A stretch of DNA of 33,817 nucleotides from Bacteroidales bacterium (GTDB taxonomy: Bacteria; Bacteroidota; Bacteroidia; Bacteroidales; UBA12077). Shown in pieces: positions 5,249 through 20,344 of this stretch. Where the stretch lies: the NCBI GenBank assembly GCA_030668615.1, contig DAOUTQ010000016.1, positions 1 through 33,817 of the forward strand, read 5' to 3'. A model generated the notes under the pieces. That model was not told the DNA's origin. It made no database searches and saw only the letters and a program-made list of their open reading frames with translations. The position numbers were made by a program, and so were the translations under genes. Every line of letters begins with the position of its first letter. The first letter of the stretch is position 1.

Positions 5249-6070
5249 TTATTTGTTGAAGACTGTATGTAAATATGTTTCGAAACTAATGTTAAAATCA
5301 GCCGGGCTTTCGTAAAAGAAAATATGTCCTGTGTCTCTTACAATCTGAATTATGCTTCTCCATATTGATGGAATATCAATTGAATTTAAATAATCAAAAT
5401 TTAAAATCTGGTCGAGCTCCCCAAAATAAACCGCAACCGGAACTTTTATATTTTTAATTATTTCTATTTGATCCTGATATTCTCCTTTCATAATTGATCC
5501 AAACAAATATTCTCTGGTTTTTAAATCTGCCTTTCTTATTATTTCGGGAATAAATTCAGGATATTTCGTTTTTTCTTCTACAAGCAATGCTGCAATTTGA
5601 TGAACCTCACTATCATCTATTCCGGGCTTAGCAAACAATTCAAAAAACGATTTTTTGAGAAACATTTCATTGGTAACCGGATTCGACAACGGAATAGCTC
5701 CAAGTAACGCAAGACCCAAAGGATTGGTTAATTTGTTAAATGCCTCTATTATTACATTTGCACCTGTATTATGGCCAACATAAACCGCATTTTCAAGTTT
5801 TAGTTCCTTACAAAAACCTATCAGAAAATCACTTAATCCACTTATTGTATAATCATCCTGAGGGTTTTCAGAAGATGCTGAATTGCCATAACCGGGTAAA
5901 TCCAAAGCAATAAACCGAAATTGATATGATAATACAGAATCGATTAATTGCCTAATGAAAACGGAGGCCGATGACGACATGCCGTGAACAAAAACAACCG
6001 GATGCCCATTGTCTCTGGATTCATAGTAAAACACTTCTTTCTCTTTAACTTTTATTCTTTTTTGCTTCAT
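5249..6070 (-). CDS. Alpha/beta-hydrolase-fold protein with Asn at the nucleophile position
   Basis: The 273-residue protein has the alpha/beta-hydrolase layout: PVVFVHGMSSS oxyanion loop (residues 24-34), FIALDLPGYGNS (54-64), nucleophile-elbow strand YVGHNTGANV (97-106), acid loop YFGELDQ with Asp220, and RDTGHIFFYE with His249. The elbow should be G-x-S-x-G; here it reads G-H-N-T-G, with Asn101 replacing Ser. I checked the codon (AAT on the minus strand). Asp and His remain. There is no signal peptide, so it is probably cytoplasmic. It may be a non-hydrolytic family member or use another mechanism. It is divergent from the M1 peptidase gene at 6204, with 133 bp between them that must hold both promoters. 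Substrate cannot be inferred. Confidence 0.85.
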   Translation of the reverse strand: MKQKRIKVKEKEVFYYESRDNGHPVVFVHGMSSSASVFIRQLIDSVLSYQFRFIALDLPGYGNSASSENPQDDYTISGLSDFLIGFCKELKLENAVYVGHNTGANVIIEAFNKLTNPLGLALLGAIPLSNPVTNEMFLKKSFFELFAKPGIDDSEVHQIAALLVEEKTKYPEFIPEIIRKADLKTREYLFGSIMKGEYQDQIEIIKNIKVPVAVYFGELDQILNFDYLNSIDIPSIWRSIIQIVRDTGHIFFYESPADFNISFETYLHTVFNK

Positions 6071-16481: not shown

Positions 16482-16934
16482 ATGAGGGCAGTAATTCAAA
16501 GAGTTAGTAAGGCTTCTGTTAGTATAAACAGTAAAGTTAAATCATCGATAAAATCCGGTCTTTTAATATTGGTTGGAATAGAAAATACTGATACTACCGA
16601 AGATATTGAATGGTTAAGCAATAAAATTACACAACTTCGTATTTTTGATGATCAGGAAGGAGTAATGAACTTATCAATAAAAGAAATTGATGGAGAAATC
16701 CTTACAATAAGCCAGTTTACGCTTCATGCTAAAACAAAAAAAGGAAATCGTCCATCTTATATTCAAGCAGCAAAACCAGAAGTTTCTATACCATTATATG
16801 AAAAATTCGTTGAACAATTAGGCCTTGATTTAGGTAAGGAAATTAAAACAGGTGAATTTGGTGCCTATATGAAAGTTGCCTTGGAAAACGACGGACCTGT
16901 TACAATCATTATCGATACAAAAAATAAAGAATAA
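16482..16934 (+). CDS. dtd: D-aminoacyl-tRNA deacylase
   Basis: The 150-residue cytoplasmic enzyme is full length for the family and starts MRAVIQRVSKASVSI. It has SQFTLHA (77-83, with the active-site Thr80), KGNRPSY (87-93) and the cross-subunit Gly-cisPro motif in ENDGPVTIIID (Gly138-Pro139). It removes D-amino acids wrongly attached to tRNA and also clears glycine mischarged on tRNA-Ala. The next gene (MFS) begins 3 bp after its stop, so the two form an operon by spacing, though the functional link is not obvious. Confidence 0.96.
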   Translation: MRAVIQRVSKASVSINSKVKSSIKSGLLILVGIENTDTTEDIEWLSNKITQLRIFDDQEGVMNLSIKEIDGEILTISQFTLHAKTKKGNRPSYIQAAKPEVSIPLYEKFVEQLGLDLGKEIKTGEFGAYMKVALENDGPVTIIIDTKNKE

Positions 16935-16937
16935 AAC

Positions 16938-18317
16938 ATGAATACCTTATCGATTAAATCTTTCGAAAGAGCCACCCTTATTGTTACTTCTTTTGCCGCT
17001 TTTGTAACTCCGTTTATTGGATCGGCTACAAATATTGCGCTACCCGCAATAGGGAAAGAATTTTCTGCCAACGCTGTTATGTTAAGTTGGGTTGCCACTT
17101 CTTTTCTGTTAGCATCGGCAGTTTTTTTGGCGCCATTTGGCCGCCTGGCAGATATTGTTGGTCGTAGAAAAATATTTAGTATAGGATTAATAATATTTAC
17201 AATTGCCTCGTTCTTATGTGCTTTTTCAAATGGAATCGAGATTCTTATTTTTTGGCGAGTAATTCAAGGTATTGGTGGTGCGCTAATTTTTGGGACAGCA
17301 ATGGCAATCATAACATCTGTTTTTCCTCGTGAAAGAAGAGGAAAAGCATTAGGTATTGTTGTAGCTTCTGTTTATTCAGGTTTAACTCTTGGACCTTTTA
17401 TCGGAGGCTTTTTAACAAAAACATGGGGCTGGGAAGGAATATTTCTGTTTGTAGTTCCTCTTGGGATAATATCTGTTATCTTAAGTTTTATATATCTAAA
17501 GGAAGAATGGGCCGATGCTAAAGGTGAGAAATTTGACTGGAAAGGATCTGTTATTTACGGTTTGGCAATTATTTCCTTAATGTACGGTTTTGGAAAACTA
17601 CCGGAGCTCAACGGTTTTTTATTTACACTGGCAGGAACTTTAGGAATTGTTCTTTTTGTGTATTTCGAGAAAAAGCAAGAATTCCCGGTTATAAATATTC
17701 AACTATTCCAGAACAATCGTGTTTTTGCATTTTCAAATTACGCTGCTTTAATAAATTACAGCGCAACATTTGCCATTGGATTTTTATTAAGTCTCTACTT
17801 ACAATATATTAAAGGATTAAATCCTCAGCAGGCTGGACAAATACTTGTAATTCAGCCATTATTAATGGCTATTTTCTCACCAATTACCGGGAAATTGTCA
17901 GATAAAATCGATGCTGGAAAAGTTGCTTCTATTGGTATGGCTTTAATTTCTGCAGGATTATTTGTTATTGCTTTTATCGGATCTGATTCCAGTATTTGGT
18001 TTATTATTCCAATACTGGTTGTTTTTGGAATTGGTTACGCCCTATTTTCTTCTCCCAATTCAAATGCAATAATGAGTTCTGTTGAGAAGAAATATTATGG
18101 AATTGCATCAGGAACTGTAGGTACAATGAGATTGGTTGGACAAATGTCAAGCATGGGAATTGCCATGATGATTTTCTCTATATTTATTGGAAAAGTTGAA
18201 ATAAATCCTTCGAACTTTCCTGAATTTATTCATAGTATCAGAACCGTATTCTTGATTTTTGCCGTACTATGCTTTATTGGAATATTTTTCTCGCTGGCCA
18301 GAGGGAAGTTAAAATAA
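16938..18317 (+). CDS. MFS transporter, DHA2-type (14-helix) drug/metabolite exporter
   Basis: The 459-residue integral membrane protein has up to 14 hydrophobic helices. It carries motif A in PFGRLADIVGRRKIF (66-80) and a motif C-like stretch (SVYSGLTLGPFIGG) in helix 5, which marks antiporters of the major facilitator superfamily. SATNIALPAIGKEF in helix 1 resembles the D1 motif of the 14-helix DHA2 group. It likely exports drugs or metabolites by proton antiport; substrate unknown. It overlaps an operon with dtd. Its last 38 codons (from ~18195) occur again at 18998-19111 behind the RAYT gene in a diverged form (see that feature). Confidence 0.92.
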   Translation: MNTLSIKSFERATLIVTSFAAFVTPFIGSATNIALPAIGKEFSANAVMLSWVATSFLLASAVFLAPFGRLADIVGRRKIFSIGLIIFTIASFLCAFSNGIEILIFWRVIQGIGGALIFGTAMAIITSVFPRERRGKALGIVVASVYSGLTLGPFIGGFLTKTWGWEGIFLFVVPLGIISVILSFIYLKEEWADAKGEKFDWKGSVIYGLAIISLMYGFGKLPELNGFLFTLAGTLGIVLFVYFEKKQEFPVINIQLFQNNRVFAFSNYAALINYSATFAIGFLLSLYLQYIKGLNPQQAGQILVIQPLLMAIFSPITGKLSDKIDAGKVASIGMALISAGLFVIAFIGSDSSIWFIIPILVVFGIGYALFSSPNSNAIMSSVEKKYYGIASGTVGTMRLVGQMSSMGIAMMIFSIFIGKVEINPSNFPEFIHSIRTVFLIFAVLCFIGIFFSLARGKLK

Positions 18318-18341
18318 CTAAAATAAACATGTATTCTTACA

Positions 18342-18390
18342 ACGACTTTAAGTAAAATATATTCGCGCCACGACTTAAAGTCGTAGCACG
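18342..18390. repeat. RAYT-associated REP-like palindrome plus degenerate half-copy
   Basis: ACGACTT-A-AAGTCGT (18370-18384) is a 7-bp stem hairpin that extends imperfectly to 18364-18390. A partial copy (ACGACTTTAAGT, 18342-18353) lies just upstream. It sits 18 bp before the RAYT start. This is the layout of REP sequences beside their cognate RAYT in other bacteria. No further copy is seen in the window. Confidence 0.75.
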
Positions 18391-18407
18391 AATAAACGAA
18401 TTTAACA

Positions 18408-19001
18408 ATGGAAAAAGATATCATATATCATCTTTACAGTAAAGGGAATAACGGTCAAAAGATATTCTTCAATAGAGAAAATTATATGTTTTTTCTGCAA
18501 AAAGCGAGAAAGCATCTTTATCCATACTGTGATATTCTTGCATATTGTTTAATGCCTAATCATTTTCATTTTATGATTTACGCTAATGAAAACTCCGAAA
18601 AAACAAAAACTCGTGGTAAAATAGGAGCTAATGTTTTTCCGAAAAACCTTAGAATAATGTTAAGTAGTTATACCCGGGCTGTTAACATACAAGAAAACAG
18701 ATCAGGCTCACTATTTCAACAAAATTCAAAAATTAAACCCCTAAATGATGTTTTTTATGGAAAAATATCACCCTCTGCTCAAATTTCTTATGATTATTAT
18801 TGTTTTCATTATATCCACAATAATCCAGTTAGTGCTGGTTTGGTAGGTAAAAAGGAAGATTGGGAATTTTCGTCCTATCAAGATTATATTGGAATAAGAA
18901 ACGGTAGTTTAATAAACAAAACCCTTGCATTAAAAACCATTTGTTTAGAAGACGATTTGTTTAATAAGCAATCAAAAATTAAAGATTTATTAGAAAAGTA
19001 G
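18408..19001 (+). mobile_element. REP-associated tyrosine transposase (RAYT, Y1/HUH family) coding sequence
   Basis: The 197-residue protein has the RAYT/IS200-like layout: YHLYSKGNNGQKIF (7-20), a helix ENYMFFLQKARKHL, the HUH motif in MPNHFHFMIYAN (His52, His54), RSGSLFQ (98-104) and the Tyr-bearing helix YDYYCFHYIHNNPVSAGLV (128-146). The catalytic Tyr is among 128-135. RAYTs nick single-stranded REP hairpins and are usually single-copy and domesticated. The hairpin at 18364-18390 is the likely substrate. The last ~5 codons lie in sequence resembling the neighbouring MFS gene, so its natural C-terminus may have been replaced at the insertion junction. No full IS ends are seen. Confidence 0.9.
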
Positions 19002-19174
19002 AAATAAATCCCTCGAACTTTTCTGAATTTATTCACAGTATTCGAACCGCATTTCTAATATTTGCAGTATTATGCTTTATTGGAGTATTTTTCTCGCTAG
19101 CCCGCGGCAAATCAAACAGGAGTAGATTTAACGGCGGCTTTATAAAAAAGCCTAAAAAAGAAAACCGCTCGTGA
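18998..19174 (+). pseudogene. Stranded 3' end of a second MFS transporter copy
   Basis: In the frame starting at 18998 the sequence reads VEINPSNFSEFIHSIRTAF and on through VLCFIGVFFSLARGK, then a basic tail ending NRS and a TGA at 19172-19174. It matches the C-terminus of the MFS gene (from 18195) at 35 of 38 residues, although 17 of 38 codons differ, 14 of them silently (19 nucleotide changes in 114). Matching may reach back to about 18985, inside the end of the RAYT frame. There is no start codon or upstream MFS sequence. It is therefore a broken remnant of a paralogue or allele, and its tail is longer than the intact copy's (which ends RGKLK). Confidence 0.85.
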
Positions 19175-19279
19175 TAGTGATCGTCATTTAAATAACGAAA
19201 AGCTTCTTTAGAATAGTTTTTTTCTGTTTTTTTTAAAAAAACTTCTGTTTACTTCTAATTTTTTCGTTCAAATTTGTAA

Positions 19280-19313
19280 TTTGTAATTCTTTGCTAATTA
19301 TTGATTATTTTTG
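19280..19313 (+). promoter_or_regulatory. Candidate promoter of the deoC-AOR operon
   Basis: TTTG at 19280-19283 and TATTTTTG at 19306-19313 match the Bacteroidota promoter elements with a 22-nt spacer (2-3 nt longer than ideal). Transcription would start near 19320, leaving a leader of ~75 nt before deoC. The 19175-19396 interval otherwise holds only AT-rich sequence. Confidence 0.55.
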
Positions 19314-19396
19314 TTTTTCCTATTAAAGTACGAACTCAATCACAAAAAAATTGCATACTAATTCATAATAAAATTCTTTTTAAAAAGAGGGGGAAA

Positions 19397-20344
19397 ATGA
19401 TGCCAACACAAACAAAACGAACTCCATTAGTTGAATTTCCAAAAGATGAAATGTTAAAGCTTATTAAAAGCTTTAGTCCTGAAAGGATTGCAACATTTCT
19501 TGATGTTACCGATTTAAAAGCAGATACTTTAGGTCCGAAGCTCGATAAAATGGCTGATTGGGCAATATCATTGAAATGTGCTTCTGTTTGTGTAAATCCG
19601 GTAGAAGTAGACCGATTACCATTGCTTTTAAAAGGTTCCGGAGTAGCAGAAACTTATGTTATGGATTTTCCTTTAGGTAAGGTTGATATTGACCTAAAAG
19701 CACGTATGACAGAAGATACAGTACAGAAAAGTCGAAAACTACGAGGCGAAGGCGCAGGTCATATCGATATAGATATTGTAATAAATGTTGGAAGATTCAA
19801 GGCGAATCATAAATATGCTCTCGAAGAAATAAACGCTATGTGCGATGCTGCCGAAGGAGAAGTTGTAAAAGTAATTATTAGAAGCTCTGAGCTAACCGAA
19901 GAAGAACTTGTTGCTGTTACCGAAATTGTTGGCGAATCAAAGGCGCAATTTATTAAAAACTCAACCGGAATGGACGCATACGGTGCTATGCCGGAACATA
20001 TGAGAGTAATGCGTGAAATTATCGGAAATAGCAAAGGCGTAAAAGCTGCAGGTGGGATTTCTGATGCAATGACAGCTTTGAGGTTAATTTATGCAGGAGC
20101 TCCTGATGAATCAACACAAAATCCGGATCTTTTCAGAATCGGAACAAGCGGTCCATTAAATATTGTTTCATCAATGGGTTGGCTGTTACATAATTCTGAA
20201 GACTGGTTAGATGCTGGCATAATTCCATGCAAAGTTTGTCCTTTTAACTATACATCGAAATTGCGCCCCGAATTAAGAATTCATAGCCAAAACAGATGTA
20301 AAGAATGTATCCATAATCATTACAGAAAGAATAAGGATTTTTAA
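19397..20344 (+). CDS. deoC: Deoxyribose-phosphate aldolase with four-cysteine C-terminal tail
   Basis: The start is set at ATG 19397 (MMPTQTKRTP, 315 residues) because GAGGGGGA lies just before it; a longer frame from TTG 19301 would run through the candidate promoter. The protein is a class I DeoC-family aldolase: DIDIVINVG with Asp126, FIKNSTG with Lys187, and VKAAGG with Lys216, aligning with E. coli Asp102, Lys167 (Schiff base) and Lys201. It cleaves 2-deoxyribose-5-phosphate to acetaldehyde and glyceraldehyde-3-phosphate. The last ~40 residues are an unusual extension with CKVC (278-281) and CKEC (301-304), which could bind zinc or an Fe-S cluster. It is followed after 64 bp by an aldehyde ferredoxin oxidoreductase, a plausible acetaldehyde user. 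Confidence 0.9.
   Translation: MMPTQTKRTPLVEFPKDEMLKLIKSFSPERIATFLDVTDLKADTLGPKLDKMADWAISLKCASVCVNPVEVDRLPLLLKGSGVAETYVMDFPLGKVDIDLKARMTEDTVQKSRKLRGEGAGHIDIDIVINVGRFKANHKYALEEINAMCDAAEGEVVKVIIRSSELTEEELVAVTEIVGESKAQFIKNSTGMDAYGAMPEHMRVMREIIGNSKGVKAAGGISDAMTALRLIYAGAPDESTQNPDLFRIGTSGPLNIVSSMGWLLHNSEDWLDAGIIPCKVCPFNYTSKLRPELRIHSQNRCKECIHNHYRKNKDF

Follow-up and report, generated by a model that had tools for sequence, protein, structure and literature searches.

A probable mosaic scar of recombination and deletion behind an MFS transporter gene in a Bacteroidales genome

Between conserved flanking genes, the window (the whole stretch of 33,817 nucleotides analysed here, from contig DAOUTQ010000016.1 of assembly GCA_030668615.1) carries an intact MFS transporter gene, a RAYT-like gene and, directly behind the latter, the 3' remnants of a second MFS copy and of a MazG-like gene, with two joints. 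We think it probable that a mosaic scar is seen here, left when haplotypes of close species, one with the RAYT and one without, recombined through an illegitimate joint; a deletion flanked by short repeats would also have contributed. The mechanisms invoked are already known; the locus would be a cleanly readable case of exchange between sister species that left stumps of the displaced genes. It also warns that a frame can stay open, with changes that are mostly silent, and yet not belong to a working gene.

Layout of the locus

The window comes from a draft genome (G000) of 3.3 Mb in 239 contigs, 88% complete. The congeners with which it was compared are Bacteroidota, mostly Bacteroidales, the nearest species compared being represented by locus L063 (genome G017). 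The features are as follows.

16482..16934, + strand: D-aminoacyl-tRNA deacylase-like gene (DTD), the upstream flank, kept in congeners
16938..18317, + strand: intact MFS transporter gene, copy A, 459 aa (Pfam MFS_1, E 1.2e-78)
18342..18384, no strand: hairpin upstream of the RAYT (DNA fold z -3.0)
18408..19001, + strand: RAYT-like HUH/Y1 transposase gene, 197 aa, stop codon within joint J1
18985..19001, + strand: joint J1, an overlap fitting both the RAYT end and MFS (exact GAAAAGT at 18993-18999)
18985..19116, + strand: MFS 3' remnant, probably of a second allele (copy B), lacking its own start and stop
19107..19116, + strand: joint J2, GCAAATCAAA, compatible with the MFS 3' end as well as with MazG
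19107..19211, + strand: MazG-like pyrophosphohydrolase 3' remnant, with an inner TAA at 19143-19145 and the old stop at 19209-19211
19400..20344, + strand: deoC-like aldolase gene, the downstream flank, 82-96% identical in amino acids in 7 of 12 congener loci

The gene order is DTD, MFS, hairpin, RAYT, MFS 3' remnant, MazG 3' remnant, deoC, AOR and GGPPS. The names DTD, deoC, AOR and GGPPS, like PTPS, ArsR and polA, are putative ones given from the sequences and not from family searches. Copy A is 91% identical to the MFS protein of G017/L063. DTD lies immediately 5' of MFS in 11 of the 12 congener loci, the exception (L072) starting inside MFS. Where deoC is not well matched, the locus either gives a match of only 29-30% (L015, L066, L069 and L070) or reaches its contig end (L068). 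Behind MazG in L066, L069 and L070, a 289-aa gene that is about 30% like deoC replaces deoC and AOR, and is followed by GGPPS.

Two diverged copies of the MFS 3' end

The recurrence of the last 38 MFS codons behind the RAYT, first seen in an earlier note made from the sequence alone, is reproduced with the same counts. Between 18195-18308 and 18998-19111, 19 of 114 bases differ, the 17 changed codons comprise 14 silent and three replacement changes, and 35 of 38 residues are identical. The match extends upstream to about 18985 and ends there, with ATTTATT.GAAAAGT.GAAATAAAT common to both copies, and the RAYT stop codon (18999-19001) lies, as proposed, within this MFS-like stretch. In a tblastn search, copy B shows 90% amino acid identity across MFS residues 416-457. 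This is the second of only two places in the 88% complete G000 where an MFS tail was found (E 3.6e-29).

The earlier note had further argued that both copies evolved as coding sequence and that the remnant is not a fresh duplication. The pattern of silent changes supports the first point, and the second is borne out by comparison with L063, since the three tails are about equally far apart. The L063 tail differs by 18 bases from copy A and by 16 from the remnant, in a comparison across relatives that leaves out the L065 and L067 rows because of over-long pattern matches. Among codons for identical residues, silent changes number 14/35 between copy A and the remnant, 13/35 between copy A and L063, and 11/34 between the remnant and L063. 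A fresh local duplication is rejected, as the two tails differ from each other about as much as from the sister species. Copy A and the remnant diverged at about the time when the window and L063 lineages did, the equality being rough and based on few codons. G008 is likewise rejected as the direct donor of copy A, since 38 of 114 tail bases differ.

Copy A, the remnant and L063 form one clade, both over MFS codons 226-458 (support 100/100) and for the tail alone (93/93). Within it, the window gene pairs with the remnant at 69/27, and the other two pairings are not rejected (AU p 0.26 and 0.41); the tree of the 38-codon tail alone gives no resolved order among the three. Copy A is a normal transporter gene, and the remnants code for nothing known.

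The joint at the end of the RAYT gene

The parents of J1 can be read in the RAYT of G365, which ends GAGAAGTTTTAA, and in the MFS gene, which at 18189-18206 reads GGAAAAGTTGAAATAAAT. GAAAAGT fits both and is a short shared sequence of the kind expected at an illegitimate joint; the actual break could have occurred at any position within 18985-19001. In 200,000 random joins of the two genes, 0.09% shared at least seven bases.

The TAG of the window RAYT is formed from the MFS-frame codons GTA GAA, and follows the residues SKIKDLLEK. Related RAYTs all end in TAA, after SGLIKFMEKF (G365), SGLDKILEF (G301), EGLSKLMES (G414) and NGLDTVIEA (G016), stopping at the end residue of the window protein or one later. 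The window protein is one residue shorter than that of G365 and has the same length as those of G301 and G016. Because the latter two are no longer than the window's, the loss of a RAYT codon at J1 does not follow.

The MazG remnant and the second joint

The MFS frame of the remnant reads on to a TGA at 19172-19174, as had been reported, but the basic tail of 20 codons encoded there, which was taken for an MFS tail, comes from the end of a MazG-like gene in the wrong frame. Positions 19107-19397 give a nearly gapless alignment with L063 6141-6431, where a MazG-like gene (Pfam MazG, E 2.6e-15) ends and the deoC leader follows. Translated in the MazG frame, the window gives ANQTGVDLTAAL*KSLKKKTARDSDRHLNNEKLL* and L063 gives ANQTGVDLTEALEKSLKKKTDRDSDRHLNNEKLQ*, the asterisks denoting stops; 34 residues are 88% identical to L063 MazG residues 73-106 with one TAA inside, 11 of 31 codons carry silent changes, and one of four other changes is the stop. 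Both the protein and the DNA alignment to L063 place this homology in a gene that stands at the same position in relatives. When L063 MazG was used as a query against six genomes, its sole match in G000 was the 3' piece behind the MFS remnant. An MFS family with such a basic tail is therefore rejected as the source of the tail, the tail DNA itself being MazG.

MazG stands behind MFS in 7 of the 10 congener loci read (L063, L064, L066, L067, L069, L070 and L071), and no MazG frame is listed there in the other three (L065, L072 and L103), in which what appear by eye to be the last MazG codons remain before the deoC leader. In L063 alone among these 10 loci, a DUF559 endonuclease-like gene (5472-5861) lies between MFS and MazG. 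The MFS C-terminus is LARGKSK in 7 of 11 congener loci (L063-L067, L072 and L103). In L068 and L070 the protein ends soon after LAR, with different residues there, and in L069 and L071 it continues into a longer, dissimilar tail that overlaps the start of MazG.

For J2, the MFS gene of L064 ends GGCAAATCAAAATAA, and MazG reads GCNAATCAAAC in L063 and L064 and GGCAAACCAAACAGGAG in L071. The L064-type MFS end and the L063/L064 MazG have the same letters at the bases of the window's junction. The 10 bases of J2 match at 9 of 10 positions in the relatives' MazG sequences shown, and exactly in none. Deletions between short direct repeats are known to leave fused pseudogene ends, and J2, with its GCAAATCAAA repeat and the loss of the MFS stop and most of MazG, is alike with no apparent difference. 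In lineage B, the MFS protein may once have been made longer through the J2 fusion.

J1 and J2 make two scars where the earlier note saw one. That two metagenome strains were joined into an assembly chimera is very improbable. In its favour stands the draft state of the source (239 contigs, 88% completeness). Against it, the longest exact word common to both parts is 14 bases, which is short for an assembly overlap, no N occurs at the joints, and the nonsense codon in the MazG piece is a sign of real decay.

Exchange between haplotypes or an old tandem duplication

Our preferred explanation starts from two haplotypes, DTD-MFS-RAYT and, in a closely related lineage, DTD-MFS-MazG-deoC. DNA of one would have entered a cell carrying the other, and the upstream end would have been exchanged via ordinary homologous recombination. 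The other end would have been joined illegitimately at the GAAAAGT common to the RAYT end and the MFS gene, replacing the RAYT's own stop, removing its downstream hairpins and leaving roughly 40 codons from the 3' end of the other MFS allele. A separate deletion between two near-identical copies of GCAAATCAAA, before or after the exchange, would have taken the MFS stop together with roughly two thirds of MazG, while the out-of-frame 3' end with its nonsense codon stayed. What the sequences show directly is the pair of remnants, both joints, the similar distances and the flanks kept in congeners. We infer an exchange in preference to an old paralogue, and likewise the way in which it ran, which of the two events came first and which haplotype was the donor. 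Neither a genome with the donor haplotype nor a same-species genome without the event was found.

The proposed process resembles homology-facilitated illegitimate recombination as described in PMC6382021, in that it would involve related DNA, a homologous anchor and a second joint at a few shared bases. It differs from that system in being deduced from one natural locus without either parent, the anchor end not being located.

Of the two origins offered in the earlier note, we find recombination with a relative the better fit and a tandem paralogue the poorer one. In the latter case, two tandem MFS genes would have existed near the split of the window and L063 lineages, the RAYT would have stood or landed between them, a deletion running from the RAYT end into the second gene would have spared its tail, and L063 would have lost one copy cleanly. 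The same joints and the same roughly equal distances would be expected, and the weak pairing of the remnant with copy A (69/27) agrees with it. Against this, no tandem copy or second MFS tail occurs in any of 12 congener loci (L068 being cut 0.25 kb behind MFS), and none of the 13 genomes with a close MFS match, among 19 same-genus genomes searched, has a second one. A single recombination suffices for exchange, whereas the paralogue requires a duplication and at least two losses; we regard the paralogue as unlikely, if still worth considering.

One of the two options in the earlier note has the RAYT come in with the event, which is not required. In G008 (L068), a RAYT of the same clade stands directly behind MFS in the same direction, so that the MFS-RAYT order is probably older than the scar. 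The G008 RAYT groups as sister of the window RAYT (90/83), a placement drawn from just the 51 residues that precede the contig end, and the spacer and hairpin between MFS and RAYT look unlike the window's by eye. A search for deoC in G008 did not locate it. Insertion of the RAYT into, and splitting of, the MFS gene is rejected, copy A being complete.

Divergence along the MFS gene and the direction of transfer

Silent divergence between the window and L063 is raised in MFS codons 1-150 (16938-17387), at 61/133 versus 500/1800 in other segments (p 2.6e-5; the pooled comparison leaves out codons 151-225, at 22/69). This hints at an import reaching into MFS. The 3' end of copy A does not look foreign, because at 57/217 silent changes the 3' half of the gene is no further from L063 than are the flanks (DTD 27/134, deoC 64/301); AOR is fairly diverged too (192/556). 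Against a foreign 5' part, the tree of codons 1-225 still pairs the window with L063 (95/98). The tree of codons 1-150 keeps the pair weakly (43/83), and it is not rejected with codons 1-75 or 1-120 (AU p 0.35 and 0.46). Codons 1-150 show an excess of window-only changes that is clear with L064 as outgroup (48 to 24, p 0.006) but not with L103 (45 to 32, p 0.17) or L067 (33 to 26, p 0.43).

These values also bear on a transfer in the reverse direction, in which MFS-RAYT would be native and the MFS tail, the MazG end and perhaps deoC would have come from a RAYT-less relative. Both flanks are at the baseline distance to L063, so that the direction is not fixed by them, and the RAYT position is shared with G008, but the unusually diverged portion closest to the scar is on its upstream side, towards the 5' end of MFS. 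We hold this direction to be improbable.

The RAYT-like gene and its relatives

The translation of 18408-19001 carries the HUH motif NHFH and the tyrosine motif YIHNNP of a predicted transposase. In PMC6006769, RAYT subclass 2.4 is given as NH[IFV]H plus YIxNNP and subclass 2.6 as NH[LIV]H, and by these patterns the window motifs fit 2.4 better. The protein scores 43.7 bits (E 2.4e-11) for NCBIfam NF047646, below the cut-off of 80, and 15.4 for Pfam Y1_Tnp (cut-off 23), with E 0.68 to TnpArep in PDB 4er8; the related L137 and L116 likewise score below 80 for NF047646. We call it RAYT-like on these scores and not a certified family member.

As to the REP part of the RAYT/REP unit named in the earlier note, no repeated REP is shown here. 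The hairpin at 18342-18384, which includes the palindrome ACGACTTAAAGTCGT at 18370-18384, is the only one found at the RAYT and lies upstream of it, in place of REPs on either side with further copies across the genome. As an exact pattern, the palindrome core has a single occurrence in G000 and is absent from seven congeners. By eye, hairpin-like repeats follow the RAYTs of G365, G301, G414 and G016, lying on both sides in G365 and G414 and only downstream in G016. Compared with the REPtrons described in PMC6006769 and PMC2817692, the locus is alike in pairing an HUH Y1 protein with a hairpin beside its gene, and unlike in having no downstream hairpin and in scoring 43.7 against the NF047646 cut-off of 80.

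In a tree of 34 chosen RAYT rows, the window RAYT groups with those of G008, G016, G365, G414 and G301, the six forming one clade (100/100). The RAYT lies between MFS and deoC in the window, behind MFS in G008, between AOR and GGPPS in G365 and between PTPS and polA in G016, so that the window, G365 and G016 show three different gaps of the same gene cluster; in these three, its strand is that of the neighbouring MFS/deoC/AOR or PTPS/polA genes. The comparison used 18408-19001 of the window, L068 5225-5377, L115 and L069 8753-9345. The RAYTs of G414 and G301 adjoin other genes. We read this as short-range movement of the clade. That such a RAYT, moving within one cluster, itself started the exchange by single-strand cutting, its nicked end healing into the incoming MFS allele, is a speculation to which we give little weight. 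In a second RAYT clade of the genus (six rows, 99/96), five of the six members occupy a single place. Both neighbours are common to G018, G008, G013 and G015; G017 has the one that its contig shows, and the sixth member, G012 (L051), has neither (12 loci compared).

Among 51 relatives of the window MFS found in genome contigs, 29 are archaeal by title, mostly from Methanosarcina and its kin, at 50-59% identity except for L109 at 41%. This suggests an old transfer between Bacteroidales and methanogens.
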